From NCBI GenBank assembly GCA_946630825.1, contig CAMOZG010000006.1, forward strand, positions 1 to 32,239: DNA of 32,239 bases, written 5' to 3'. Made by a program: the position numbers and the translations under genes. This DNA comes from an uncultured Lachnospiraceae bacterium. Its GTDB lineage: Bacteria > Bacillota > Clostridia > Lachnospirales > Lachnospiraceae. This document shows, in pieces, positions 3,317 through 32,064 of the stretch; the stretch's first letter is position 1; every line of letters starts with the position of its first letter. Under the pieces are notes generated by a model, which saw only the letters and a program-made list of their open reading frames with translations, made no database searches and was not told the origin of the DNA.

Positions 3317-5830
3317 ATGGATGATAACAGACAGAAAATAGAGATATTTAAAATATCACATATTCTTATTCTTGCCATCTATACTGTTTTTTCAATAGTA
3401 CTTATAGGTGAAAGTATCCTTTTGTCCTGGGAGCTCTGGGTCATTCCTCTTGTTATTGCCTCTGTGATCGCATCCTGGTGGATGCATGTGGCAAGGGTCA
3501 TCAGTGAAAAAGCGAGACTCTGGTTTTACGCAATTCTCTGGATGACGGAATTTTTCTTTTATGGCATTCATACCACCGGACCTTACGATATGTCTGTTAT
3601 TATGGCGGGGATCATGATGATCTTCGGTATGACAGGCATTCTCAATCTGGTTACTTATGCTCAGATAGTTTATTATATTACCCTTTCCTACAATCTTTTC
3701 AATATGATAAAAGAGGGGACAGACTGGGATGCAGTTACTGTCACCCGGCTTTTGGTGCATGTGGCTTCCATACTTCTCATTGGATATTTCGTCCGGGTCA
3801 TTGTGCATGAATGGGAAGCTGCCAATACGGTTGCTGATGAAAAGATCCAGGATCTGCAGCGTTCTACCCAGCGTATGGACAATTTCCTTGTAAATGTTTC
3901 CCATGAGATCAGAACTCCTGTAAATGCAGTTATTGGACTTACCTCCGTAATAATGGAGGGCAATAACTTTGATGAAGAAGGCAAAAAGAACCTTTCCGCT
4001 GTAAATGCTGCAGGGCACCGTATATCTGAGCAGATAGGCGATATTTTAGACTATACCGAGATCGATATGGAAAAGCTGGTGGTGACCAATGAGACCTACA
4101 TGATGTCATCACTTTTAAACGATCTGGTCACCGACCTTAACAATACCCAGCACACAGAGCTGGAACTTATCATTGATGTGGATGCAAAGCTGCCGAGAGC
4201 ACTTTCGGGAGATATGATAAAGATCAAAAAGATCATGCGCCACCTCATCATAAACGGACTTAAATTCACCAAATACGGCGGTGTGTATGTGCACATCTAT
4301 CCCCAGAAGAGAAGCTATGGCATCAATCTGTGCATTGAGGTCAGGGATACGGGAACCGGCATGGATAAGGATGAGATAGAGCATGTATTTGAAAGCTTCT
4401 ATCAGTCCGACAGCGGCAGATCAAGAAGCGTAAGCGGACTGGGACTGGGGACTTCCATAGTCTACGGCTTTGTCCGGGAGATGGGAGGCTTTTTGACCAT
4501 TGAGTCCCAAAAGGATCATGGAACCACTGTATCCGTAAGTATCCCCCAGTATGTGGTGGATGAGACCGGCTGCATGACTCTTTCCGACACCAGATCCTAC
4601 TGTATTGCATCACTTTTAAGATACAGGGCAATACCGGATCCACAGATCAGAAGCTTTTACAATGACATGGTCATCAATCTGGCGGGCGGTCTGAATCTGC
4701 CGTTTTATCAGGCGGAGTCCACGGATAATCTAAGAGACCTTTTGAAAAAATACAAGCTGACCCATCTGTTTATCGGGGCAGAGGAATACATGACCGAGCC
4801 CTCCTTCTACGAGAAGCTGGCAGTTGATACCTCGGTGGTGGTGGTGGCGGATCAAAGCTTTGTGCCTAGGGATAACTCCAAGGTCATCATAATCAGAAAG
4901 CCCTTTTACTGCTTCCCTGTCATCAAGGTTTTGGAGACCAGCCGCCAGGTCATAATGGAGGAAAAGGACAAGCGCCGGATGATCACTCCATGGCTCCATG
5001 TTTTAGTGGTGGATGATGAGCCCATGAACCTTATTGTGGCTGAGGGCATATTCAAAAAATACTGCATGGATGTGACGGTGGCAAACTCCGGACTTGAAGC
5101 CATATCCCTGTGCAAGGTCCACCCCTACGACATTGTCTTTATGGACCATATGATGCCTGAGATGGACGGAATAGAAGCCATGCGCAGGATCAAAGCCTTA
5201 AGACCCAATACCTTGGAGAAAAAGGAGACTCTCTTTGTGGCACTTACGGCAAATGTTATAAGCTCAGCCCGGGATATGTTTTTGGCAGAGGGCTTTGACG
5301 GATTTGTCGCCAAGCCCATTGATATCATAGAATTTGAGAGAGTATTAAAGCGGCTTTTGCCCAAGTCCGCCATACAGTATGTGGATGAAGAGGTCATAAA
5401 CACAGCTTCAAATAAGGCAAAGACTGTTGAAGTCAAAGAAGAAAAAAAGCCTAAAGAAAATCCTGACGGCATGGATCCCCTAAGACTGGCTGGGCTTAAT
5501 GTGGAGACCGGCATTGAGTATTCACAGAATGATCAGGGCTTTTATGAGCTTTTGCTTAAGGAATACGGCACAAAGGCAGCGGAAAAGAAAAAGGAGCTCT
5601 GTGATTTCTACGAGGCAAAGGACTGGGAGAATTACACCATAAGGATCCACGCCCTAAAGAGCACCTCAAAGATGATCGGAGCAAATGATATCTTTGAAAT
5701 GGCGCTGGCGCTGGAGCAGGCGTCCAAGGAAAAGGACGAAGAGAAGCTTTTAGACCACGATAAATGTATGAAACGGTATGAAGAAGTATCAACGGCAATA
5801 TTGGAGTATCTGGACAGTGCCCGGAGGTAG
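3317..5830 (+). CDS. Hybrid sensor histidine kinase: multi-TM / HisKA / HATPase / degenerate receiver-like / REC / HPt
   Basis: FLVNVSHEIRTPVNAVIGL (H-box), DTGTGMDKDEIEHVFESF and GLGLGTSIV (N/G boxes), LVVDDEPMNL...DIVFMDHMMPEMDG (REC), YTIRIHALKSTSKMIGA (HPt). Confidence 0.94.
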   Translation: MDDNRQKIEIFKISHILILAIYTVFSIVLIGESILLSWELWVIPLVIASVIASWWMHVARVISEKARLWFYAILWMTEFFFYGIHTTGPYDMSVIMAGIMMIFGMTGILNLVTYAQIVYYITLSYNLFNMIKEGTDWDAVTVTRLLVHVASILLIGYFVRVIVHEWEAANTVADEKIQDLQRSTQRMDNFLVNVSHEIRTPVNAVIGLTSVIMEGNNFDEEGKKNLSAVNAAGHRISEQIGDILDYTEIDMEKLVVTNETYMMSSLLNDLVTDLNNTQHTELELIIDVDAKLPRALSGDMIKIKKIMRHLIINGLKFTKYGGVYVHIYPQKRSYGINLCIEVRDTGTGMDKDEIEHVFESFYQSDSGRSRSVSGLGLGTSIVYGFVREMGGFLTIESQKDHGTTVSVSIPQYVVDETGCMTLSDTRSYCIASLLRYRAIPDPQIRSFYNDMVINLAGGLNLPFYQAESTDNLRDLLKKYKLTHLFIGAEEYMTEPSFYEKLAVDTSVVVVADQSFVPRDNSKVIIIRKPFYCFPVIKVLETSRQVIMEEKDKRRMITPWLHVLVVDDEPMNLIVAEGIFKKYCMDVTVANSGLEAISLCKVHPYDIVFMDHMMPEMDGIEAMRRIKALRPNTLEKKETLFVALTANVISSARDMFLAEGFDGFVAKPIDIIEFERVLKRLLPKSAIQYVDEEVINTASNKAKTVEVKEEKKPKENPDGMDPLRLAGLNVETGIEYSQNDQGFYELLLKEYGTKAAEKKKELCDFYEAKDWENYTIRIHALKSTSKMIGANDIFEMALALEQASKEKDEEKLLDHDKCMKRYEEVSTAILEYLDSARR

Positions 5831-5833
5831 GTT

Positions 5834-8515
5834 TTGTTGAACAAGATCAAAAACATGATCCATAAAATATATAGTGATGAGGAGCGGGACATACAGGAAC
5901 GGCTCTTTTTCGTGATCTGTGTGGTGGGTCTTCTTGCCTATACCTTCACTGTGATCGCCTCCATTTTCATTGGTGAATCCGGTCTCAATATCCTTATCAT
6001 GCTGGTGGGACTTCTGGCGCTTGTACTTATCGTATTTTTCATATTTAAAAATAAAAAGATAAAGTTTGGGGAGTTTTTTGTTTCCTTTTTGATAGTCTAT
6101 ATTCTTTTGCCTCTTATATTTTTCACAGGAGGCGGTATATACGGCGGAGCTTCCATGTGGTTTATATTTGCCATTCTTTTTATCAGCATGGCTATTCAGG
6201 GGAAAATGAGGGTGTTTTTCCAGCTAAGCTGTGCACTGGTGGCGGCAGTCAGCTATGTGGTGGCTTACAAAAATCCCGATTTTGTCACCTTTCATACCAT
6301 AGATACAGCCTATATTGACTCTTTGACCCAGATCATCATTATAGGTCTTATGGTGGTGATAATTACCCAGCTTACCATAAGCATGTACCGTGAAGAAAAC
6401 CGTAAGGCAAAGAAGCAAAAGGAAGAGATCGACGCGCTAAACCGTGCCCAGAACCGGTTCTTTTCCAGCATGAGCCATGAGATCAGGACTCCCATAAATA
6501 CCATTATCGGGCTAAATGAAATGATCCTTCGGGAGGATATTTCGGATGAGATAGCGGAGGATGCGGGAAATATAGAATCCGCCTCAAAGATGCTTTTGCA
6601 GCTTATAAACGACATTTTGGATATGTCAAAGCTGGAAGCGGGAGAGATGAAGATAATCCCCTCGGAGTATTCCCTCAAGGATTTTATCTCTGAAATAGTG
6701 GGGATGTTCTGGATCAGACTCAAGGAAAAGGATCTAGAACTTGTGGTAAACGTGGACCCCACCATCCCCTCGGGTCTTATCGGAGATGAGGTTCGCATAC
6801 AGCAGATTCTTATAAATATAATAAACAATGCCATAAAGTACACAAAGGAGGGTTCCATTACCCTGTCGGTCCAGTGTGAAAGGACAGCCCCCGGCAATGT
6901 AAAGCTTATTTATGCCGTCACGGATACGGGCATAGGTATTAAAAAAGAAAATATTTCCCACCTGTTTTCGGCTTTTTCCCGGGCTGATGATGAGGAAAAC
7001 AAATACGTGGAGGGCACAGGCTTAGGGCTTTCCATAGTAAAACAGCTTGTGGATCTCATGGATGGTGAGGTCACAGTCAACAGTATATATACCCAGGGTT
7101 CCACCTTTATCGTGTCCATACCCCAACAGATCAGTGACGAGACAGAGTTAGGTGATGTGGACTTCCTAAACAGGCACATGGCAAACCGCAGGGAGGATTA
7201 CAGCCAGAGCTTTGAGGCTCCCGAGGCAAGGGTTCTTGTGGTGGACGACAACCACGCAAATATCATTGTTATGAAAAAGCTTTTGCGTGACACCAAGGTG
7301 ATGATAGATTCGGCTGAAAGCGGAGCAGATGCGCTGTCTTTGACCCTGGAAAATTCCTATGATGTGATATTCATGGATCATCTGATGCCGGAAATGGATG
7401 GTATTACCTGCCTGCATCGGATCAGGAATCAGATCGGGGGTATGAGCAGGGAAGCAAAGGTGGTTGCGCTGACAGCCAATGCAGGCAGCGATAGGGAAGC
7501 CTTTTACATCAAAGAGGGCTTTGACGCTTATCTTTTAAAGCCCGTAAACGGCGTGACGGCAGAGAGGATGCTTTTGAGCATGCTGCCGGAGAAAATGGTT
7601 AAGCTTATAAATGCTGATGCAGAGCTTTTGGTTGAACACGGAGAGCATACTTATTCCAAAAACAAAAAAAAGCCTGTGGTCATTACCTCCGAAAGTGTGG
7701 GAGATCTGCCCCAGGAGCTTATCGAAGAGCTTAATATACCCATAATTTCCTACGGTATACACACGGAGGAGGGGTATTTTGTAGACGGAAAGGAAGTTGA
7801 TTCCAAGGGTGTCATAGACTACATGGATCACAGGGGAAAGGTGGCTCACTCTGAATCCCCCAAGGTCAGGGAGTATGAGACATTTTTTGCAGAGCAGCTT
7901 TCCCATGCCAACAATGTGATACACATTACCATGACCCAGGGACTCAACAGCGACTCCTATACAGAGGCTTCCGAGGCTGCAAAGTCCTTTGAAAATGTTA
8001 TGGTTTTAGACTCCAAAAACTTCTCCTGCGGCATGGGTATAGTGATTTTAGAGGCTGTCAGGCTGGCAAGTGAGGGAGTGCCCTTTGACGGAATAGTCGC
8101 CAAGCTAAATGAATTTTTGACCAGGGTGGAGACCAGCTTTATAGTGGACAGCTTGGACTACCTTACCAGAGCCGGTCGTATATCCAAAATTCTCTCTGCC
8201 CTTACGGATGCATTTATGGTTCATCCCGCCCTTAGCTTAACAGGCGGAAAGATCAAAGTAAGACAGGTGTATTTCGGCGCCAGAAAGCGGGCATGGAGGA
8301 GATATATTTCATCTGCTCTTGCGGCTGCGGGACATATAGACAAAAGCAGGCTTTTTGTAGCCTATGCAGGGCTTAGTCAGGATGATCTGAATTATATCAG
8401 AGCCCAGATTGAAAAAAGGGAAAACTTTGATACAATAATCTTTCAGGAGGTTTGCGCCTCCATTACCATAAACTGCGGACCGGGAGCCTTTGGGCTTATG
8501 TTCCAGGATTACTGA
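5834..8515 (+). CDS. Hybrid sensor histidine kinase: multi-TM / HisKA / HATPase / REC with C-terminal DegV domain
   Basis: FFSSMSHEIRTPINTIIGL, DTGIGIKKENISHLFSAFSR, GTGLGLSIVKQLV, VLVVDDNHANI...DVIFMDHLMPEMDG, then PVVITSESVGDLPQELIEEL...VDSLDYLTRAGRISKILSAL...CGPGAFGLMF in one uninterrupted frame. TTG start. Confidence 0.93.
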   Translation: MLNKIKNMIHKIYSDEERDIQERLFFVICVVGLLAYTFTVIASIFIGESGLNILIMLVGLLALVLIVFFIFKNKKIKFGEFFVSFLIVYILLPLIFFTGGGIYGGASMWFIFAILFISMAIQGKMRVFFQLSCALVAAVSYVVAYKNPDFVTFHTIDTAYIDSLTQIIIIGLMVVIITQLTISMYREENRKAKKQKEEIDALNRAQNRFFSSMSHEIRTPINTIIGLNEMILREDISDEIAEDAGNIESASKMLLQLINDILDMSKLEAGEMKIIPSEYSLKDFISEIVGMFWIRLKEKDLELVVNVDPTIPSGLIGDEVRIQQILINIINNAIKYTKEGSITLSVQCERTAPGNVKLIYAVTDTGIGIKKENISHLFSAFSRADDEENKYVEGTGLGLSIVKQLVDLMDGEVTVNSIYTQGSTFIVSIPQQISDETELGDVDFLNRHMANRREDYSQSFEAPEARVLVVDDNHANIIVMKKLLRDTKVMIDSAESGADALSLTLENSYDVIFMDHLMPEMDGITCLHRIRNQIGGMSREAKVVALTANAGSDREAFYIKEGFDAYLLKPVNGVTAERMLLSMLPEKMVKLINADAELLVEHGEHTYSKNKKKPVVITSESVGDLPQELIEELNIPIISYGIHTEEGYFVDGKEVDSKGVIDYMDHRGKVAHSESPKVREYETFFAEQLSHANNVIHITMTQGLNSDSYTEASEAAKSFENVMVLDSKNFSCGMGIVILEAVRLASEGVPFDGIVAKLNEFLTRVETSFIVDSLDYLTRAGRISKILSALTDAFMVHPALSLTGGKIKVRQVYFGARKRAWRRYISSALAAAGHIDKSRLFVAYAGLSQDDLNYIRAQIEKRENFDTIIFQEVCASITINCGPGAFGLMFQDY

Positions 8516-8543
8516 TTACTTTTACATAACAGGGAGGGATCAC

Positions 8544-9536
8544 ATGTATAACTTACTGGTTGTAGATGATACAGAAATAAATCTCATGATGACGGAGCGG
8601 CTTTTAAGTGGTATGCCTGTGTCGGTGGATACCGCCACGGGAGGAGAGGACGCACTTAAGCTTTTAGAAAAAAAGGACTACGATCTGTGCTTATTCGACT
8701 ATCAGATGCCGGGTATGAGCGGAGTGGAGCTTTTAAATGCCATGAAAAATATTGACAGGGATGTATCCGGTTCAAAGGTAGTGGCAATGACAGGCACAGA
8801 GGATGAAAAGGCTGCGGATTATTTTATGGAGCTTGGATTTGACGGCTTTTTAAGAAAGCCAATTATAAAAGAGGAGCTCCTGTCCGTTCTTTTTGAAATG
8901 TTAGGTGATCCCATATTTGATGAAGGCACCACGGATCTGTCCCAGGAGGAGATAGAAAAGATACCACAGGATATCAGAAATATTCCGGAGCTTGACCATA
9001 TTTTAGGCATTAAAAATGCGGGGAGTGCCAGGGATTTTATGTCTGCTATCGGAATTTTCTGCAAGGATATAGACCGAAACTCCAAAGAGATCGAAAATGC
9101 TTTTTCATCCGGTGATATGAAGACCTATACCATCAAGGTCCATGGACTTAAAAGTACAGCAAAAATGATAGGTGCCTTAAAGCTTTCTGAGATGGCGGCT
9201 TCATTGGAGGCGGCTTCCAAAAGCCTTGGGGGAGCGGATCTGGCAAAAGACACTGAGGATATGCTGACATTGTACAGAAGCCTCCATGACAAATTAAAGG
9301 ATGCCATGAAGGAAGAAAAGCATGATGCGGCAGCCCAGAAAAAGATTGATGATGCCTATGCCACCCTTAAGGACTATGCCTATGCAGAGGACTATGATCT
9401 TGTGGAGCTTATCTTAGGGGCAATGGAAAACTACACCATGCCAAGTGCCGACAAGGACAGATTTGACAGGATCAAAAAATGCCTTTTGGAATTTGACTTT
9501 GACGGTATCAAAAGTATTTTGGAGGAAGTGGGATGA
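8544..9536 (+). CDS. Response regulator, REC + HPt, no recognised output domain
   Basis: YNLLVVDDTEINLMM...DLCLFDYQMPGMSG (REC); YTIKVHGLKSTAKMIGA (HPt). ORF track begins at 8490, but ATG 8544 follows aggaggg-like SD and gives the REC N-terminus. Confidence 0.9.
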   Translation: MYNLLVVDDTEINLMMTERLLSGMPVSVDTATGGEDALKLLEKKDYDLCLFDYQMPGMSGVELLNAMKNIDRDVSGSKVVAMTGTEDEKAADYFMELGFDGFLRKPIIKEELLSVLFEMLGDPIFDEGTTDLSQEEIEKIPQDIRNIPELDHILGIKNAGSARDFMSAIGIFCKDIDRNSKEIENAFSSGDMKTYTIKVHGLKSTAKMIGALKLSEMAASLEAASKSLGGADLAKDTEDMLTLYRSLHDKLKDAMKEEKHDAAAQKKIDDAYATLKDYAYAEDYDLVELILGAMENYTMPSADKDRFDRIKKCLLEFDFDGIKSILEEVG

Positions 9537-10303
9537 GTAAAAAGGACACGGTCCTCATAGTCAGTACCCAGGAAAACTTCTTTGTAAATGGTATTGAATT
9601 TAAACTCAACAGCTTTGGGTTTAACGGTATTTACGTTCCCTGTGATTTTGAGACACTGATGCAGTACAGTGATCATGCGGATCTGATCATATATTACATG
9701 GATGAGCATGTGTACGAACATGTCAAGATCCATACCCTTTTAAAGGATATGGTCATGGCTTCCGGCAAACAGATCATACTCATTGGAGAAAGAACAGAGT
9801 ATGAGGCGGTGACCAGGGACCTTTCCGAGAAATACATACTAAAATGGTTTGAGCGACCCTTTGATATGCTAAAGCTTATGAATTTAGTGGGAGCTTTCTT
9901 CAGGGGAGAGACCTCCATAGACATAAGCCAGAAGCATATACTTATCATTGATGATGATGTCACCTACATGGAGATGATCAAAAACTGGCTTAAGGACGAG
10001 TATCTGGTGACACTTACGCCCTCAGCCGTAAAGGCGCTGCCTTATCTCCAGCGAAAGAGGATGGATCTGATAATCCTGGATTATGAGATGCCGGAGATGT
10101 CGGGACCGGAGTTTTTAAAGCAGCTCCACGAAGCTCCTGTAAATAACGACATACCTGTAGTATTTCTTACCGGGCATCAGGATAAGGAAAGCGTGATGAA
10201 TGCCTTGGGGCAAAAGCCGGATGGCTACCTCTTAAAGACCATTGACAATAAGACCCTGCATAAAAAACTGGGGAGTTACTTTTTGGGAAACGAAATAAGC
10301 TGA
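9533..10303 (+). CDS. Two-receiver protein: degenerate N-terminal receiver-like domain + canonical C-terminal REC
   Basis: C-terminal HILIIDDDVTYME...DLIILDYEMPEMSG...VFLTGH...YLLK. N-terminal half has receiver-like layout, but the phospho-Asp region reads DLIIYYMDEH. ATGA overlap with the previous gene. Confidence 0.85.
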   Translation: MSKKDTVLIVSTQENFFVNGIEFKLNSFGFNGIYVPCDFETLMQYSDHADLIIYYMDEHVYEHVKIHTLLKDMVMASGKQIILIGERTEYEAVTRDLSEKYILKWFERPFDMLKLMNLVGAFFRGETSIDISQKHILIIDDDVTYMEMIKNWLKDEYLVTLTPSAVKALPYLQRKRMDLIILDYEMPEMSGPEFLKQLHEAPVNNDIPVVFLTGHQDKESVMNALGQKPDGYLLKTIDNKTLHKKLGSYFLGNEIS

Positions 10304-18322: not shown

Positions 18323-21300
18323 TTGCGCAAAAAGATCTATCGAATGTCGGAGGACAAATTTGATCCGGCATGTGGATTGAAACTTGATACTGACAGACTT
18401 CTGCTTTCCGGAGTTTGCGGCGAGATCTTCGAAGGCTCCTTTGTGGTACGTAGTGACGGGGAGGGGCCGATCCGGGGGATGGTGTATTCCACCAACCCCT
18501 ATATCAGGATCACCAAGCCCAGATTTGACGGCCTGCAGTGCCGCATTACCTTTGCCACGGTACACGGATCTTTTTCCCATGGAGATGTTATCTCCGGGGA
18601 TTTTTATATAGTATGTGCCGGTGTGGATCGAAAGCTTCCCTTTGAGATAACCTTTGGACAGAAGTCCCCTGTGGTGGAGGGGACAGCCATTAAAAATCTG
18701 TCGGATTTTGCGGCTCTTGCCCGGGAACACTGGCAGGCGGCTTTGCGCTTTTTTTCCTCAGATGCCTTTTATGAGGTTATCGAAAATGCCCCTGTTCATA
18801 CCAGACTTTTGTACCGTGGATATAAAAGTGTGGGCATCACCTCTTTTAACATGGAGGAATTTTTAGTAGCCACCGGGCTTAAAAAAAAGATATCATTTTC
18901 CGTGGAGGGGGATGATGATCTAAGCTTTTATGATGTGGATGAAAACCAGAAGCATGTGATCCATGTCAAAAAAAACACCTGGGGCTACATCCATATAGAG
19001 GCTTTCTGCAGGGAGGATTTCATCTCTGTGGAAAGGGAGGATCTCGGCTCCGAGTATTTTATTGGAAGCGATTTGGAGCTGTCCTTTTACATACACCGGG
19101 ATATGCTTCATTCCGGCATAAATAAGGCAGTTATCACCATTAGCGGCGCAGGCATCACAAAGGAGATCGGCATTACCGTATCCACCCGCTCCAAGGAAAT
19201 CTCACAGGAGCATATCCATCACATAGATGAGAGAAAAAGCAGGAGCGCCCTTACGGAGCTCTACATTGACTACAGACTGAAGGCCATTACCACCGGTGAT
19301 TTTTGCAGCAGATCCATTGAGATATTGGATGTGCTCATAGAAGAGCATCCCGACGAGGCAATGTACAAGCTGCAAAAGACCCAGTGCCTCATTGTAAACA
19401 AAAACCGGCAGGAGGCTCTGTGGCAGATATCGGATCTGAAGCGGGAAATAGAGGATAAAAAAAGTACCCAGTGGGCATATCTTATGTATCTGTGTACCCT
19501 TCTTGAGCAGGAGGACACCTATGTGGACAAGCTGACTGCCGAGATAGAGGGGATACTTCTTTTGCATCCCGAGGATGTGAGGATATTCTGGTTTTTGCTT
19601 TTTTTGCGTACCGATTACATCAATGATTCCAGGCGTAAGCTAAGTGACATCCGAAACTGGGTGGAGGCAGGATTCCACAGTCCCTATCTCTATATCGAGG
19701 CATACCGGATATACCAGAGTGACCCCTATCTCTTTAATGAGCTTTCCGACTTTGCCATTAATATCATGCTGTGGGCTGCCAGACATGGGCAGATCTCCGT
19801 GAATTTGGCAGAGCAGTTTCAGGAGCTTTTGGCAGATCAAAAGGCATTTGATGTCAGGGTCTATCGCCTGGCAGGATATATATATGACAGATATCCCCAG
19901 AAGGATCTGCTTTTTGCCATAGTAGCATATCTTTTAAGGGGAAATATGATAGGAAAGGCTTATCTGGATTTTTACCGGATGGCTATTGATAAGGAGATCA
20001 AGCTTACGGGGCTTTATGAGGCATATATCATGTCACTGCCTGCAGACTATGTGGAAAAGCTGCCTGAGCTTGTGACCTTGTATTTCAGGTATGAAAACAA
20101 CCTGTCATATGAGAAAAAAGCCTTTGTATATGCCAATGTGATCACCTACAAAAAGGAAGATCCGAAGCTTTATGACCAGTATAAAAAGACCATACAGCGG
20201 TTTTCCCTGGAGCATATGGCAAAGGGTGATATAGATGACAATTTAGGACTGTGCTACGCAGATCTTTTGGAATCCGGCATAATGGATCACGATATTGCCT
20301 GCGATATGGAGCAGTTTATCTTTACCAACAAGGTCATTACCCTCCATGACAATATAAACAGTGTTATTGTATTTGAGGACTCTCTGGATGCTCCCCACAG
20401 GGCGGCAGTCCATGATTACGGAGCCTTTGTGCCCATATTTACCGGTGACTACCAGGTCTTTTTGGAGACAAGTGACGGAAGCCTTATATCGGATCCCGCA
20501 TATTACAGCGTACAGCCCATATTCAATGCTTCACAATATGTGGAGCGGTTAAGTGTACTTTCCAATGAGACCCTGCCTTATTTTCTATACAACCAGTACA
20601 GGCACAGATCTCCGGATGATTTCACTCCGGCAGAGCTTGATAGGATCGGTGACTTTTTGGAAAGCGATATAATAGATCCTGAGTATAAGCTTCGCAGGCT
20701 TCCGTTTTTCTCCCAGGTATTAAAGCTTTCCGACAGGGAAAAGCCAATTATAGACTACCTGATAAAAAGCGGAAATTACAAAAAGCTGGATACGGAGACC
20801 GGCACCCATGTCATGGATATACTCATAATTTCGGATGAGTATGACTATGCCTACGATATGCTTTTAAACAGCTATGGCATCACAGCTTCCTCCAAATCCC
20901 TTTTGCGTCTTATAACCGACAGATGCAAAAAGACAGAAAAGGAAACGGATGATTTTCTGATCGCCATGTGTGCATATCTGATGCAGCAGTATCTTTTTTC
21001 GGATGCCACTTTAAGCTATCTGAATAACTACTATGTGGGTCCCACCTTTCTCATGGAAAGCGTGTGGAAATTTGCCTATGCCAATGAACTGCCTACAGGG
21101 CTTATAGAAGAGCGGATACTGACCCAGATGCTATATACCGAGGATATGGGAGAGGATTCCGGTGAGATATTTGAAGCCTATATGAAAAAGCGGGTGTCCC
21201 CCATGATAGTGGAGGCATATCTCACCTATTGGAGCCGTACCTATCTAATATCCGAAAAAAAGATCCCGGAGCTCATATTCGGTTATCTGATACCAAAGTA

Positions 21301-21892
21301 TGACAAGTCGGATGGGATGAACGACAGCGAAAAGCTGGCACTCCTTAAATACTTTTGTAAAAACAGGGGAGCCGCCGCGGACAACGAAGTTATATTTGAG
21401 CAGCTTCTGCGGGAGAGCATAAAGAAAAACATAGTTTTCTCCTTTTACCGGGAGGTGGACAGAAAGTACATCACCAGATTCCATCTCTATGACAAGCGCT
21501 ATGTGGAGTACCACGACAAGCCGGGGATGGATATGAGGATATCCTACCGGGATGCTTCCGGTGATCCCTGTGAGAGCAGGATGAATGAGGTGTATGACGG
21601 CATCTATGTAAAGCAGTTTGTCATGTTTTTCGGAGATACCATCAAATACAGACTTTATGACCAGTCGGCGCCGGAGAGCATCCTCCATGAAGGAGAGCTT
21701 ACCATATCCGACAATATCTATCAGGATGAACCCGGCAGATATGGTCTTATAAACCGGATGAAAAGTGATGTACTGTACCGGAATGAAAGAGAGCTTATTG
21801 AGGATATGACCCTTTACAAAAAGTTGGAGTACACTGCCGGACAGTTGTTTTATCCCTTAATGGGTAAAAATTCCACCGAGAGGAAAAATTAG
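18323..21892 (+). CDS. Large (about 1189 aa) uncharacterised protein: N-terminal beta-rich region, long alpha-helical repeat/solenoid-like middle, C-terminal beta-rich region (tentatively DUF5717-like)
   Basis: Long intact ORF with TTG start and upstream aggga. Middle rich in paired-helix segments (e.g. SIEILDVLIEEHPDEAMYKLQKTQCLIVNKNRQEAL). DUF name is from memory, not a search. Confidence 0.75.
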   Translation: MRKKIYRMSEDKFDPACGLKLDTDRLLLSGVCGEIFEGSFVVRSDGEGPIRGMVYSTNPYIRITKPRFDGLQCRITFATVHGSFSHGDVISGDFYIVCAGVDRKLPFEITFGQKSPVVEGTAIKNLSDFAALAREHWQAALRFFSSDAFYEVIENAPVHTRLLYRGYKSVGITSFNMEEFLVATGLKKKISFSVEGDDDLSFYDVDENQKHVIHVKKNTWGYIHIEAFCREDFISVEREDLGSEYFIGSDLELSFYIHRDMLHSGINKAVITISGAGITKEIGITVSTRSKEISQEHIHHIDERKSRSALTELYIDYRLKAITTGDFCSRSIEILDVLIEEHPDEAMYKLQKTQCLIVNKNRQEALWQISDLKREIEDKKSTQWAYLMYLCTLLEQEDTYVDKLTAEIEGILLLHPEDVRIFWFLLFLRTDYINDSRRKLSDIRNWVEAGFHSPYLYIEAYRIYQSDPYLFNELSDFAINIMLWAARHGQISVNLAEQFQELLADQKAFDVRVYRLAGYIYDRYPQKDLLFAIVAYLLRGNMIGKAYLDFYRMAIDKEIKLTGLYEAYIMSLPADYVEKLPELVTLYFRYENNLSYEKKAFVYANVITYKKEDPKLYDQYKKTIQRFSLEHMAKGDIDDNLGLCYADLLESGIMDHDIACDMEQFIFTNKVITLHDNINSVIVFEDSLDAPHRAAVHDYGAFVPIFTGDYQVFLETSDGSLISDPAYYSVQPIFNASQYVERLSVLSNETLPYFLYNQYRHRSPDDFTPAELDRIGDFLESDIIDPEYKLRRLPFFSQVLKLSDREKPIIDYLIKSGNYKKLDTETGTHVMDILIISDEYDYAYDMLLNSYGITASSKSLLRLITDRCKKTEKETDDFLIAMCAYLMQQYLFSDATLSYLNNYYVGPTFLMESVWKFAYANELPTGLIEERILTQMLYTEDMGEDSGEIFEAYMKKRVSPMIVEAYLTYWSRTYLISEKKIPELIFGYLIPKYDKSDGMNDSEKLALLKYFCKNRGAAADNEVIFEQLLRESIKKNIVFSFYREVDRKYITRFHLYDKRYVEYHDKPGMDMRISYRDASGDPCESRMNEVYDGIYVKQFVMFFGDTIKYRLYDQSAPESILHEGELTISDNIYQDEPGRYGLINRMKSDVLYRNERELIEDMTLYKKLEYTAGQLFYPLMGKNSTERKN

Positions 21893-21901
21893 GGGTATGT
21901 G

Positions 21902-23173
21902 ATGCAGACAGACACCAGGGACGAGCTGGGGGTATATTACGGACTGGATATCAGTAATAAATATGCCATGATCAGCTACTATCAACTTAATATGGATGGA
22001 CCTGTGACTATCAGCACCGTAGCCGGTTCCGAGGTGTATCTGATACCCATGTTTTTGGCAAAGCGAAGAGGCATGGCACAGTGGTTTTTCGGAGACGAAG
22101 CCCGCAGACAGGTTGGCATGGGGCTGGCATACGGAGTGGACCGGCTCTATGAGAGAGCGCTTATGCGGGAAAAGGTGGTTGTGGACGCCGAGGAATTTTT
22201 AGCGGTAGACCTCTTTGTCATTTTTTTAAGAAAGCTTATGTCCATGCCGGTTCCCCTGATGCGGGGCAGCTTTTTAAAAAAGCTTACCATTACCGTGGAG
22301 GAGCTTACCATGGAAGCAAAGGAGCTTTTTTCTTTAGTGGCTCAGAAGCTTTCCATCTCCGGCAGCAAGCTGTCACTTTTTGACTATCGGGAGTGCTTTT
22401 ATTACTATGTGTTAAATCAGACCCCATCTCTTTTTTTACATGATGTGGTCTTGTATCACTATGATGAAAACCACATGATAAGTTACAAGCTGACCCGCGA
22501 TCAGTCCTATACACCACAGATAGTCCATCTAAAGACCACTGATGTGGGGCGGCTTTTGGACAACAGGGATGAGACCTTTTACAAGATCGTCTCGGAGGAT
22601 ATGAACAAGTCATACATATCCTCGGTGTATCTGACGGGGGACGGCTTTGACGGCGACTGGCTGAAAAGATCCCTGGAGGTCTTGTGTAAGGGTCGCAGGG
22701 TATTCATGGGGAAAAACCTCTTTTCCAAGGGTGCCTGCCATGCCGGACTGGTTCGTGACGGAAAAAAGGACTGGCCCTTTTTGTTCATAGGAGATCATGA
22801 ACTTAAGGTAAATGTGTCCATAAAGGTTTTGGATAAAAATGAGATGCAGTTTGTCACCCTTTTATCTGCGGGAGAAAACTGGTTTGATGTAAAGGGGGAG
22901 TGCGAGGTCATATTAGACGGAACCAAAGAGGTGGAGTTCTGGATACAAAGACCTGACAGCCGTCAGGCAACGGTAGAGCTTTTAGAGCTTAATGACCTGC
23001 CGGACAGGGACAACCGTACCACCAGACTTCGGATACTGGTGACTCCCATATCCGACAGGGATATCCGCATCAATATCCGGGACTTGGGCTTCGGTGAAGT
23101 GGTGAGATCCAGCGGCAAGGTCTGGGAGCATGTGATTCATGTGAATATGGAGGACGGAATATGGGCGAACTGA
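21902..23173 (+). CDS. Divergent Hsp70/actin-fold-like protein of unknown function (tentatively DUF5716-like)
   Basis: YYGLDISNKYAMISYY (phosphate-1-like), VYLIPMFLAKRRGMAQWFFGDEARRQ (Hsp70-like IPS...GdaA), VYLTGDGFDGDWLKRSLEVLCKGRRVFMGKNLFSKGACHAGL (adenosine-motif-like), beta-rich C-terminus with LPDRDNRTTRLRI. GTG at 21899 or ATG at 21902. Confidence 0.65.
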   Translation: MQTDTRDELGVYYGLDISNKYAMISYYQLNMDGPVTISTVAGSEVYLIPMFLAKRRGMAQWFFGDEARRQVGMGLAYGVDRLYERALMREKVVVDAEEFLAVDLFVIFLRKLMSMPVPLMRGSFLKKLTITVEELTMEAKELFSLVAQKLSISGSKLSLFDYRECFYYYVLNQTPSLFLHDVVLYHYDENHMISYKLTRDQSYTPQIVHLKTTDVGRLLDNRDETFYKIVSEDMNKSYISSVYLTGDGFDGDWLKRSLEVLCKGRRVFMGKNLFSKGACHAGLVRDGKKDWPFLFIGDHELKVNVSIKVLDKNEMQFVTLLSAGENWFDVKGECEVILDGTKEVEFWIQRPDSRQATVELLELNDLPDRDNRTTRLRILVTPISDRDIRINIRDLGFGEVVRSSGKVWEHVIHVNMEDGIWAN

Positions 23174-28355: not shown

Positions 28356-29750
28356 ATGATGAGTAGTGGAAACGAAGGCTTGGCTGTTGCAAGGCTTTCA
28401 TCCTTACTGGATGAAAACAGCTTTGTGGAGCTTTCTTCCGGCGTAACTTCCAGAAGCACTGATTTTAATCAGGATCCCAAGGAAGCCCCCGGAGACGGTG
28501 TTGTTACTGGATATGGTCTTATCGACGAGCGACTGGTATTTGTGTACAGTCAGGATCCCGGAGTCCTTTCCGGTACCATAGGTGAGATGCATGCCAGAAA
28601 GATCAAGGATGTCTATGACAAAGCCATGAAGATGAGGGCGCCTATTATCGGTCTCATTGATTGCGGCGGTGTCAGACTTACGGAATCCTTTGACAGTACG
28701 GAAAGCATTGGACAGATAATCGAAGCTTCTGTGGAGGCTTGCGGAGTAGTGCCCCAGATCACGGCTGTTATGGGTCGCTGCGGCGGAGGACTTGCTGTCC
28801 TTAATTCCATGTCCGATTTTTCGTTTATGAAGGATGGTGCAGAGCTTTTTGTAAACTCTCCTGATGCCATACCGGGAAATAATTCAGAAAAGAATGATAC
28901 CTCAAAGGCAGAGTTTCAGTATAAAGCCGGAAATGTGGACATGATCGGATCCGAGGATGAGATATTAGAGGGTATCCGTGATCTCATATCAGTCCTTCCT
29001 TCTTCCGGCGGAGACGGCGGCTTTGTGGATGATTTTACTGATGATCTAAACAGAGCCTCAGAGGGTCTGGAGACAAAGCGTGACAAGGTAAGCGAGATCG
29101 CAGCCGAGCTTTCCGACGACCATCTGTTTATTGAGACCAAGGGTGGCTTTGCTCCGGGAATGGTGACCGGATTCATCCGCCTTATGGGAGCCACCGTGGG
29201 AGTTATCGGTAATGAGACCTATGAAAATGAGGATGTTCTGACTGCTTTGGGCTGTGCAAAGGCTGCTGATTTCGTCAGATTTTTGGATGCCTTTGACATT
29301 CCTCTTTTATCCCTTACCAATGTGGCAGGATACAAAGCCTGTGTATTCAATGAAGAAAGACTGCCCCGGGCTCTTGCCAAAATGGTGTCGGCAATAGCTG
29401 AGGCGGACATTCCAAAGATCAACCTGATCACCCGTCAGGCAGGCGGCACTGCATATCTTATGATGAACTCCAAGGCTATTGGAGCAGATCTGACCTATGC
29501 ATTTTCTGATGCTGATGTATCTGTTATGGATCCTGCTTTGGCAGCTTCAATTATTGCAGGTGATTCCGGTGATGTGGCAGCCTGCCGTGAAGAATACGCC
29601 ACGTCACAGTCAGGCCTTGACAATGCACTTCGCAGGGGCATGATAGACCGTGTGGTGGATTTTGCAGATGCCAGAAAGTATCTGATCGCAGGATTTGATA
29701 TGCTTTTTGAAAAGGACATGTACATCTACAAAAAGCATGGTACAAAGTAG
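28356..29750 (+). CDS. Acyl-CoA carboxyltransferase-type subunit of a biotin-dependent decarboxylase
   Basis: Crotonase-like carboxyltransferase features: GDGVVTGYGLIDERLVFVYSQDPGVLSGTIGEMHARKIKDVYDKA, APIIGLIDCGGVRL, TAVMGRCGGGLAVL, MVTGFIRLMGATVGVIGN; linked to OadG/BCCP/OadB genes. Confidence 0.88.
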   Translation: MMSSGNEGLAVARLSSLLDENSFVELSSGVTSRSTDFNQDPKEAPGDGVVTGYGLIDERLVFVYSQDPGVLSGTIGEMHARKIKDVYDKAMKMRAPIIGLIDCGGVRLTESFDSTESIGQIIEASVEACGVVPQITAVMGRCGGGLAVLNSMSDFSFMKDGAELFVNSPDAIPGNNSEKNDTSKAEFQYKAGNVDMIGSEDEILEGIRDLISVLPSSGGDGGFVDDFTDDLNRASEGLETKRDKVSEIAAELSDDHLFIETKGGFAPGMVTGFIRLMGATVGVIGNETYENEDVLTALGCAKAADFVRFLDAFDIPLLSLTNVAGYKACVFNEERLPRALAKMVSAIAEADIPKINLITRQAGGTAYLMMNSKAIGADLTYAFSDADVSVMDPALAASIIAGDSGDVAACREEYATSQSGLDNALRRGMIDRVVDFADARKYLIAGFDMLFEKDMYIYKKHGTK

Positions 29751-29761
29751 AGGGGGCGCAT

Positions 29762-30502
29762 ATGAAAAAGAAACTTATATTTTTCACCTGCTGTGTCCTT
29801 TGTATGTTTTTGCTGGTGGCGTGCAGTGGGAAGACTGCCGAGCCGGAAATGTATGGAAATATGACTGCCGGGGATCTCGAGCAGCAGGCCATGGGATTTG
29901 CGGATGAACTGACCTCCATGAGCCCCTCGGATGTGATGCAGGCACAGCTTTACTATTCCATGTATGGAACCCAGGAGGAGAATGGCGAACTTTTTGCCGG
30001 ACTTTTGGATGACTGGACAGAGGTTATTACCACCTGCGGTGATTTTAAGGATTACGGAGAGTTTTCCGTAGAAAAGAGCGGTAAGACAGTTACAGCGAAG
30101 CTGCCCCTTAATTTTACCAAGAGAAATGCAGAGCTGGTATTTGTATACAATGCCTTTGATATGGAGCTTACTTCCATCAATGCAAATCTGATCTACTCCA
30201 CAGGAGAGATCATGAAAAAGGCAGGACTTAATACGGTAATGGGTATCGGAACCGTATTTGTTATACTGATACTTATTTCCCTGCTGATAAGCTGCTTTAA
30301 GATCATTCCAAAGATCCAGGAGAGCATGGCTAAAAAGGATGAGGTCATAGAGGCCTCTCCCGAAAACTTAGAGCAGATAAGAGCCGAGGAATCCCGGGAC
30401 GAGGATGACGGCGAGCTTATAGCGGTGATAGCTGCAGCCATAGCTGCAAGCACAGGTGCATCTACAGATTCATTTGTAGTAAGGTCAATTCGCAGGATAT
30501 AA
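29762..30502 (+). CDS. OadG-like gamma subunit with lipobox and added extracytoplasmic domain
   Basis: C-terminal TVMGIGTVFVILILISLLISCFKIIPKI ... DDGELIAVIAAAIAAST...FVVRSIRRI matches OadG style; N-terminus MKKKLIFFTCCVLCMFLLVACSGK has a lipobox. Confidence 0.82.
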   Translation: MKKKLIFFTCCVLCMFLLVACSGKTAEPEMYGNMTAGDLEQQAMGFADELTSMSPSDVMQAQLYYSMYGTQEENGELFAGLLDDWTEVITTCGDFKDYGEFSVEKSGKTVTAKLPLNFTKRNAELVFVYNAFDMELTSINANLIYSTGEIMKKAGLNTVMGIGTVFVILILISLLISCFKIIPKIQESMAKKDEVIEASPENLEQIRAEESRDEDDGELIAVIAAAIAASTGASTDSFVVRSIRRI

Positions 30503-30532
30503 TCGAAGATTAATTATAAGGAAGGAGTTATT

Positions 30533-30895
30533 ATGAAAAACTATACCATAACAGTAAACGGAACAGCTTATGATGTTACGGTGGAGGAAAAGGGCGGATC
30601 ATCCGCATCAAGCGCACCTGCTCCCGCAGCCAAGGCTGCTCCCAAAAGGGCAGCTGCTCAAAGCGGTGGTGCCGGAGCTGTAAAGATAGAAGCCGGTGCA
30701 GCAGGTAAGGTATTTAAGATCTCAGCCTCTGTTGGATCCAGTGTTAAAAAGGGCGATCCCATAGTAGTGCTTGAGGTTATGAAGATGGAGACTCCTGTAG
30801 TGGCTCCCGTAGACGGAGTAGTCAAGAGCATTGATGTGGTTGAAGGTACTTCCATTGAGTCAGGAGCACTTCTTGCAACAATGGATGAAGCATAA
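30533..30895 (+). CDS. Biotin carboxyl carrier protein/subunit
   Basis: Ala/Pro-rich linker then biotinyl motif VLEVMKMETPVVAPVDGVV. Confidence 0.95.
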   Translation: MKNYTITVNGTAYDVTVEEKGGSSASSAPAPAAKAAPKRAAAQSGGAGAVKIEAGAAGKVFKISASVGSSVKKGDPIVVLEVMKMETPVVAPVDGVVKSIDVVEGTSIESGALLATMDEA

Positions 30896-30915
30896 TTTTT
30901 GAGGAGGAGCAATTT

Positions 30916-32064
30916 ATGAGTTATGTTGCGGAGACAATGGGAAATCTCCTCCATCAGACAGCATTTTTTAATCTGACTGTGGGCAACTACATCATGATCC
31001 TTGTGGCGTGTGTATTTTTATATCTTGCTATCAGAAAGGGTTATGAGCCATTGCTTTTGGTTCCCATTGCATTTGGTATGCTATTAGTAAATATTTATCC
31101 TGATATCATGGCTTCCCCTGAGGAGACCAGCAACGGAGTGGGAGGACTTTTGTATTATTTCTTCTCTTTGGATGAATGGTCCATACTTCCGTCTCTTATT
31201 TTCCTGGGAGTCGGCGCCATGACGGACTTTGGTCCCCTTATAGCCAATCCCATAAGCTTCCTTCTGGGTGCGGCAGCCCAGATAGGTATATTTACAGCCT
31301 ATCTTTTAGCTATCTTACTTGGATTTAATGATGAGGCTGCAGCGGCAGTATCCATCATTGGAGGAGCAGACGGTCCCACCTCCATCTTTTTGGCAGGTAA
31401 GCTGGGACAGAGTCAGCTTATGGGTCCCATAGCAGTGGCGGCATATTCCTATATGTCACTGGTGCCCATAATACAGCCTCCTATCATGAAGCTTTTTACC
31501 ACGAAAAAAGAGCGGGCTATCAAGATGGATAATCTGCGTACAGTATCAAAGCTGGAGCGCATACTTTTCCCCATTATCGTTACCATTGTAGTCTGCCTGC
31601 TTCTGCCCACCACGGCACCCTTGGTTGGTATGCTTATGCTGGGAAATCTTTTCCGTGAATCGGGAGTGGTAAGACAGCTTACAGATACGGCAAGTAATGC
31701 ACTTATGTATATAGTGGTCATTTTGCTTGGAACTTCCGTTGGTGCATCAACCAGCGCAGAGGCTTTCCTTAACTGGACCACCATTAAGATCGTTGCCCTC
31801 GGACTTGTGGCATTTGCCTTTGGTACGGCTGGTGGTGTGCTTTTCGGCAAGCTGCTTTGCCATCTGACCCACGGTAAGATCAATCCTCTTATCGGGTCTG
31901 CGGGAGTGTCTGCAGTTCCCATGGCAGCCCGTGTGTCCCAAAAGGTTGGAGCCGAAGAGGATCCCACCAACTTCCTGCTTATGCACGCCATGGGACCCAA
32001 TGTTGCCGGCGTAATAGGAACCGCCGTAGCCGCCGGTATGTTTATGGCAATGTTCGGAGTATGA
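30916..32064 (+). CDS. Sodium ion-translocating decarboxylase beta subunit (OadB/GcdB/MmdB family)
   Basis: Highly hydrophobic; FLGVGAMTDFGPLIANP, IIGGADGPTSIFLAGKL, GLIGSAGVSAVPMAARVSQKVG-like region (PLIGSAGVSAVPMAARVSQ), LMHAMGPNVAGVIGTAVAAG. Confidence 0.95.
   Translation: MSYVAETMGNLLHQTAFFNLTVGNYIMILVACVFLYLAIRKGYEPLLLVPIAFGMLLVNIYPDIMASPEETSNGVGGLLYYFFSLDEWSILPSLIFLGVGAMTDFGPLIANPISFLLGAAAQIGIFTAYLLAILLGFNDEAAAAVSIIGGADGPTSIFLAGKLGQSQLMGPIAVAAYSYMSLVPIIQPPIMKLFTTKKERAIKMDNLRTVSKLERILFPIIVTIVVCLLLPTTAPLVGMLMLGNLFRESGVVRQLTDTASNALMYIVVILLGTSVGASTSAEAFLNWTTIKIVALGLVAFAFGTAGGVLFGKLLCHLTHGKINPLIGSAGVSAVPMAARVSQKVGAEEDPTNFLLMHAMGPNVAGVIGTAVAAGMFMAMFGV

Follow-up and report, generated by a model that had tools for sequence, protein, structure and literature searches.

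The window analysed here is the whole of a 32,239 nt stretch of DNA from an uncultured Lachnospiraceae bacterium, the genome assembly of which comprises ~2.05 Mb in 195 contigs and is 81% complete. Positions 5834–8515 of its forward strand form a single ORF of 893 aa, with a TTG start, no internal stop codon and the sequence GGAGG at ~5823–5827. ORF and Pfam analysis identify the product as a hybrid histidine kinase with a C-terminal DegV-fold domain. At its N-terminus lies a membrane region (aa 20–182; 5891–6379) in which six transmembrane helices are predicted, a count that was read from the helix lengths in the AF2 secondary structure; the final predicted helix continues into that of the HisKA domain. 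The Pfam profile scan returned no confident family for this region, and DUF6057 was rejected as its identity, the match being below cut-off. Pfam then places a HisKA domain (aa 205–270; 6446–6643) with the phospho-acceptor His215, a HATPase_c domain (aa 317–432; 6782–7129) and a receiver (REC; Response_reg) domain with Asp515 (aa 467–572; 7232–7549).

The residues on which phosphotransfer depends are conserved. Among the matches listed, every aligned homologue that has a residue at the phospho-acceptor position of HisKA has histidine there (79/79), and the D/D/D/T/K residues of the receiver are each found in 80/80; the N and G boxes of HATPase_c are likewise intact in the homologue alignment. 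Judged by these residues, the fusion protein is a hybrid histidine kinase with an intact catalytic apparatus.

The DegV-fold domain (aa 616–890; 7679–8503) is supported by Pfam, by alignments and by AF2. It matches PF02645 over the whole domain with 150 bits against a curated cut-off of 27 (E=1.1e-43), and the NCBIfam model TIGR00762 with 170 bits against a cut-off of 99.7. Modelled alone, it gave a pLDDT of 92.7 and a pTM of 0.90; the model superimposes on FakB/DegV crystal structures with TM values of 0.81–0.87, and each of its 45 top-ranking PDB matches is a DegV/FakB chain. The AF2 model of the full-length protein (pTM 0.45) is too uncertain to position the DegV domain relative to the kinase; it contains a low-confidence linker at 596–611, between REC and DegV.

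The fusion gene does not stand alone. A second hybrid kinase gene (3317–5830, forward strand, 837 aa), recognized from Pfam and as a conserved neighbour, encodes a HisKA-HATPase-REC-Hpt protein, and its stop codon lies 3 bases upstream of the TTG start of the fusion gene. The Hpt match of this partner kinase is slightly under the Pfam cut-off, with the Hpt histidine conserved in 66/66 sequences, and in the homologue alignment it too retains the catalytic residues of kinase and REC. In the partner kinase a conserved stretch before REC (approximately aa 420–560) has a receiver-like K-P-F motif and no Pfam match, and is possibly a degenerate receiver. Downstream, on the same strand, a gene for a REC-Hpt protein (8490–9536, with an alternative ATG start at 8544) overlaps the fusion gene and shares 4 bases with the next gene (9533–10303). 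The latter encodes a two-part protein, an N-terminal region without a Pfam match, possibly a degenerate receiver, followed by a REC domain; relatives of it adjoin the fusion gene at four other loci (L004, L134, L135 and L136). Together, the partner kinase, fusion, REC-Hpt and REC genes look like one operon. Elsewhere, the window contains adjacent genes for DUF5717 and DUF5716 proteins (18323–23173) and a sodium-pumping decarboxylase cluster (28356–32064) of carboxyl transferase, OAD gamma, biotin carrier and OAD beta genes.

It was of interest to determine whether the fusion is genuine. A scan of species genomes, with 516 candidates passing the filter, yielded at least 80 loci. Kinase and DegV domain are encoded in one ORF, of median length 892 aa, in 79 of 80 homologues among the matches listed; the single shortened one, L060, is an ORF of 596 aa that starts inside the kinase. 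(L060, L077 and L082, being shortened or of odd length, were excluded from the alignments.) Since 79 full-length homologues in other genomes share the layout, an assembly artefact is ruled out: the fusion is genuine, and the junction near 7600–7700 is not an assembly error. The original prediction, an in-frame fusion of hybrid kinase and C-terminal DegV domain that represents a signalling architecture, is thus borne out by the single 893-aa frame, the Pfam domains and the recurrence of the layout as single ORFs in other genomes, which also rules out the frameshift or missed stop that it had allowed for near 7600–7700. At one locus (L129:5300–6500), HK-REC and DegV lie in different frames, with the break near an A-rich stretch, either through a sequencing error or because the genes are truly split. 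That frame break is all that favours an assembly error or chance read-through having fused two genes, an explanation already refuted by 79 independent full-length homologues of identical layout among the matches listed and left with a negligible probability.

The closest named homologue among the matches listed, at 75% identity, is from an uncultured Lachnospiraceae MAG. The homologues listed derive mainly from the Lachnospiraceae (50) and Oscillospiraceae (14), with five from the Eubacteriaceae and two from Spirochaetota MAGs, and the outliers may be MAG binning errors. Of 299 sampled genomes of the family, at least 46 have a DegV domain of the fusion type within an open frame of 700 aa or more, as counted by hand from the genome-scan list, and some of these carry two or three copies. 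The sample included one further genome from the genus (88% complete), which gave no match at E≤1e-30. In taxon-wide scans outside the family, fused forms were rare and confined to a few lineages; in the sampled phylum beyond the class, free DegVs alone were found at E≤1e-62, with no fused form.

DegV proteins have been studied mostly as partners of FakA, and the original prediction had cited their binding of fatty acids and the presentation of these to FakA. In FakB1 of S. aureus, the carboxylate of the fatty acid is gripped by Thr62, Ser95 and His270, Arg173 serves as a latch, and Arg205 mediates binding to FakA as well as to the membrane (PMC8892158). The FakB2 equivalents were taken as 61, 93, 266, 170 and 202, respectively, and were compared between fused domains and 32 stand-alone DegVs, of which two came from the window's own genome and 30 from family genomes (the latter are the best PF02645 matches and so biased towards canonical members). 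It is apparent that the two sets differ. Positions 61/93/266/170/202 are kept in 31, 31, 30, 32 and 30 of the 32 stand-alone proteins, and in 23, 27, 0, 28 and 0 of the 81 fused domains among the matches listed. The docking Arg202, Phe in the window copy, is thus missing from every fused domain, as is His266 of the carboxylate network, which is Asn in the window copy and in 73 of the 81. The Arg170 latch is retained in the window copy and absent from 53 of the 81, with Gln in 49. Clustering at 60% identity with divergent variants added (48 fused, 21 stand-alone) left the pattern of residue loss unchanged, with one variant, L134, having Arg at 202.

The Arg202 column is alignment-dependent, with R in 4/80 in one distant alignment and 0/81 in another; the latter is preferred because the nearest free DegVs align without gaps (KYRG vs VYFG). 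Position 202 of the fused domains is occupied by hydrophobic residues (F/I/L/M), as is position 200 (I/V/L/F), where 30 of 34 stand-alone rows have Lys; the net charge of the 198–213 segment is hardly altered (3.6 vs 3.0). Among core hydrophobic columns, 49/68 are kept at 85% or more, the cavity itself being beyond the resolution of this test. The fused domains also share new conserved motifs, N-C-G-P-G-T-F and G-x-R-E-x-A-W-K-K-Y-I.

These results do not support a presentation of fatty acids to FakA by the fused domain, and FakB function was rejected on the residues: Arg202 and His266 are missing in all 81 fused domains and each is present in 30/32 stand-alone proteins among the matches listed. 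The 'whole DegV layout' of the original prediction holds for the fold, by AF2 and Pfam, and fails for these functional residues. A true FakB that delivers fatty acids to FakA, so that the kinase controls membrane lipid synthesis, would be compatible with the DegV fold and with the FakA gene in the source genome. The genome would nevertheless have a normal Fak route without need of the fused domain, since the window also encodes a canonical stand-alone DegV (839–1711; Pfam and alignment); with this, the lost docking and carboxylate residues, and a latch missing in most of the fused domains listed, though not in the window copy, such a role is very improbable. A second stand-alone DegV of the same genome, with Tyr for His266, lies directly after a GGDEF-domain gene (contig C23, L145:5078–7139), possibly another link between DegV and c-di-GMP.

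Additional data on the origin of the domain came from three loci (L127, L128 and L130) at which the fusion is absent and an unfused gene for a DegV of the same type (283–302 aa) directly follows a HisKA-HATPase-REC-Hpt gene, the latter identified by Pfam scan in L127 and L130 and by BLAST match in L128. The DegV protein is therefore tied to the kinase system independently of fusion. These unfused, kinase-neighbour DegVs also lack Arg202 and His266; the closest free DegVs (L131, L132, L133 and L141) retain all five residues. In an unrooted DegV tree, built by a quick method without the five FakB-residue columns, fused and unfused kinase-neighbour DegVs form a single group (SH-aLRT 99) adjoining the free DegVs, and the fused domains are a subgroup within it (SH-aLRT 94). 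The residue loss would thus fall on the branch along which DegV became associated with the kinase locus, and the likely order is recruitment with residue loss first and fusion later. All recruitment traces to a single apparent event in evolution, and in that sense the residue loss counts as one observation. Between the window and L004, dN/dS for the DegV part is ~0.08, indicative of purifying selection, with dS near saturation. Taken with the intact kinase and REC residues, this selection argues that the domain is not decaying.

The gene neighbourhood is conserved as well. Among the matches listed, the partner kinase lies directly upstream of the fusion gene at 68 of the 74 loci with enough upstream DNA, with a 4-base overlap between the two genes at 35 loci. 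At 41/58 listed loci, at least one of the next two same-strand genes on the far side of the partner encodes a GGDEF and/or HD-GYP protein, in most cases with a REC domain (HD-GYP at 31/58); among the two genes that follow the fusion, a c-di-GMP-type protein occurs at only 4/52. The window itself has no HD-GYP neighbour, and no c-di-GMP regulator was found beside its operon, purA lying upstream instead. At 8/52 listed loci (e.g. L008:9769–10581 and L024:9918–10751) an SBP_bac_3 gene is situated downstream of the fusion, and its product may supply the kinase with a periplasmic input. At L134, L135 and L136 the fusion protein has an extra C-terminal Hpt domain, and in the Pfam scan of the L134 and L135 partner kinases (686 and 695 aa) Hpt was absent. 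On sequence grounds, the Hpt domain is exchangeable between the fusion gene and its partner, a swap otherwise hard to explain unless the two kinases share one phosphorelay, as is most likely.

With FakB/DegV proteins (TIGR00762, PF02645; S. aureus FakB1 and FakB2) the domain has the whole fold in common, at 16–26% identity to solved members and a TM of ~0.8–0.87; unlike them, it is part of a histidine kinase or has its gene next to one, lacks the FakA-docking Arg and carboxylate His, and has conserved motifs of its own. Kinases of the BarA/TorS/ArcB type have the same HisKA, HATPase_c, REC order, and their catalytic residues are intact here, but they carry Hpt after REC where the fusion has DegV, and against the corresponding equivalog profiles the fusion scores far below all cut-offs. 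In the RpfC/RpfG system, a fatty-acid-driven hybrid kinase acts on an HD-GYP regulator. In many relatives the partner kinase, TM-HisKA-HATPase-REC-Hpt, adjoins a REC-HD-GYP protein; here, unlike there, two kinases and a DegV domain are present. RpfC of the Xanthomonas RpfC/RpfG phosphorelay binds the fatty-acid signal (PMC5391125). The part of RpfC that senses it is an N-terminal region of 22 aa rather than a DegV fold. The system is a functional parallel, with no relatedness claimed.

A literature search found no description of a DegV–kinase fusion, one match covering solely DegV genes beside hemolysin III; architecture databases such as InterPro may list it. Hybrid kinases with extra domains are already known, and we could not find a DegV domain in this position, with such a residue history, described in the literature searched. 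The architecture had been put forward as an unfamiliar one: its characterization was indeed not found, but it is widespread rather than isolated.

What the domain does can be read in several ways. It may bind no ligand now and act as a scaffold that links the fusion kinase to its partner. Such a role would suit the fact that most members have lost the residues for carboxylate binding and the latch, the hydrophobic residues at docking positions 200 and 202 and the near-strict pairing with a single partner gene; on the other hand, AF2 shows the full DegV fold and most core hydrophobic columns are kept (measures that do not resolve the cavity), and the net charge at 198–213 indicates a surface that is not wholly hydrophobic. 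We regard this as unlikely. The original prediction had raised a lipid-binding output gated by phosphorelay: phosphorylation of REC would expose or hide the domain, which would then act on a protein or the membrane (e.g. on a lipid or lipid enzyme). DegV does lie C-terminal to REC, the usual place of outputs, behind the low-confidence linker at 596–611. Where a hybrid kinase is paired with an Hpt partner, however, its REC usually hands the phosphate on, and in L127, L128 and L130 DegV is a separate protein without a receiver of its own; also gone is the Arg through which FakB docks on FakA and the membrane. An output role is accordingly given some weight, though it is more probably wrong than right by a good distance.

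The preferred reading, which stands at about an even chance, is that DegV is a sensory or regulatory module, uncoupled from FakA, with an acyl-lipid-like ligand as its likeliest input, rather than an output or a scaffold. Dozens of related species keep the design beside the partner kinase and c-di-GMP enzymes, for which reason the fold looks like one recruited from a FakB-like protein of lipid metabolism into signalling. In such a sensory module, the DegV domain would hang in the cytosol on a flexible linker behind the receiver of a membrane-bound kinase and would bind a hydrophobic molecule, for which an acyl lipid or a neutral relative of one is the likeliest candidate because the carboxylate-binding His is now Asn; and/or it would dock on a kinase domain through a site, hydrophobic here, at which FakB-type proteins have conserved Lys/Arg. 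Either event may shift the kinase/phosphatase balance. Phosphate would be pooled with the upstream kinase via an Hpt common to both and would go on to receiver proteins that are not part of a kinase, the REC-Hpt and REC proteins in the window and, in most relatives, REC-GGDEF or REC-HD-GYP proteins and hence c-di-GMP turnover. We infer the single phosphorelay, the c-di-GMP output, ligand binding and the direction of control, with ligand binding suggested by the fold alone; lipid sensing may still occur, though with altered head-group chemistry, and the altered pocket residues could equally signify the absence of a ligand.

Little is known of how histidine kinases sense lipids in the cytosol. 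The complete picture, of a two-kinase phosphorelay not described before that reads intracellular lipid through a FakB-derived, FakA-detached domain, is wired to c-di-GMP and is common in gut and rumen Clostridia, is a tentative and somewhat doubtful one. The family nonetheless offers a directly testable case, from bacteria abundant in gut and rumen, of a binding protein of metabolism that became a signalling domain, for which the unfused and Hpt-shifted versions serve as natural controls.
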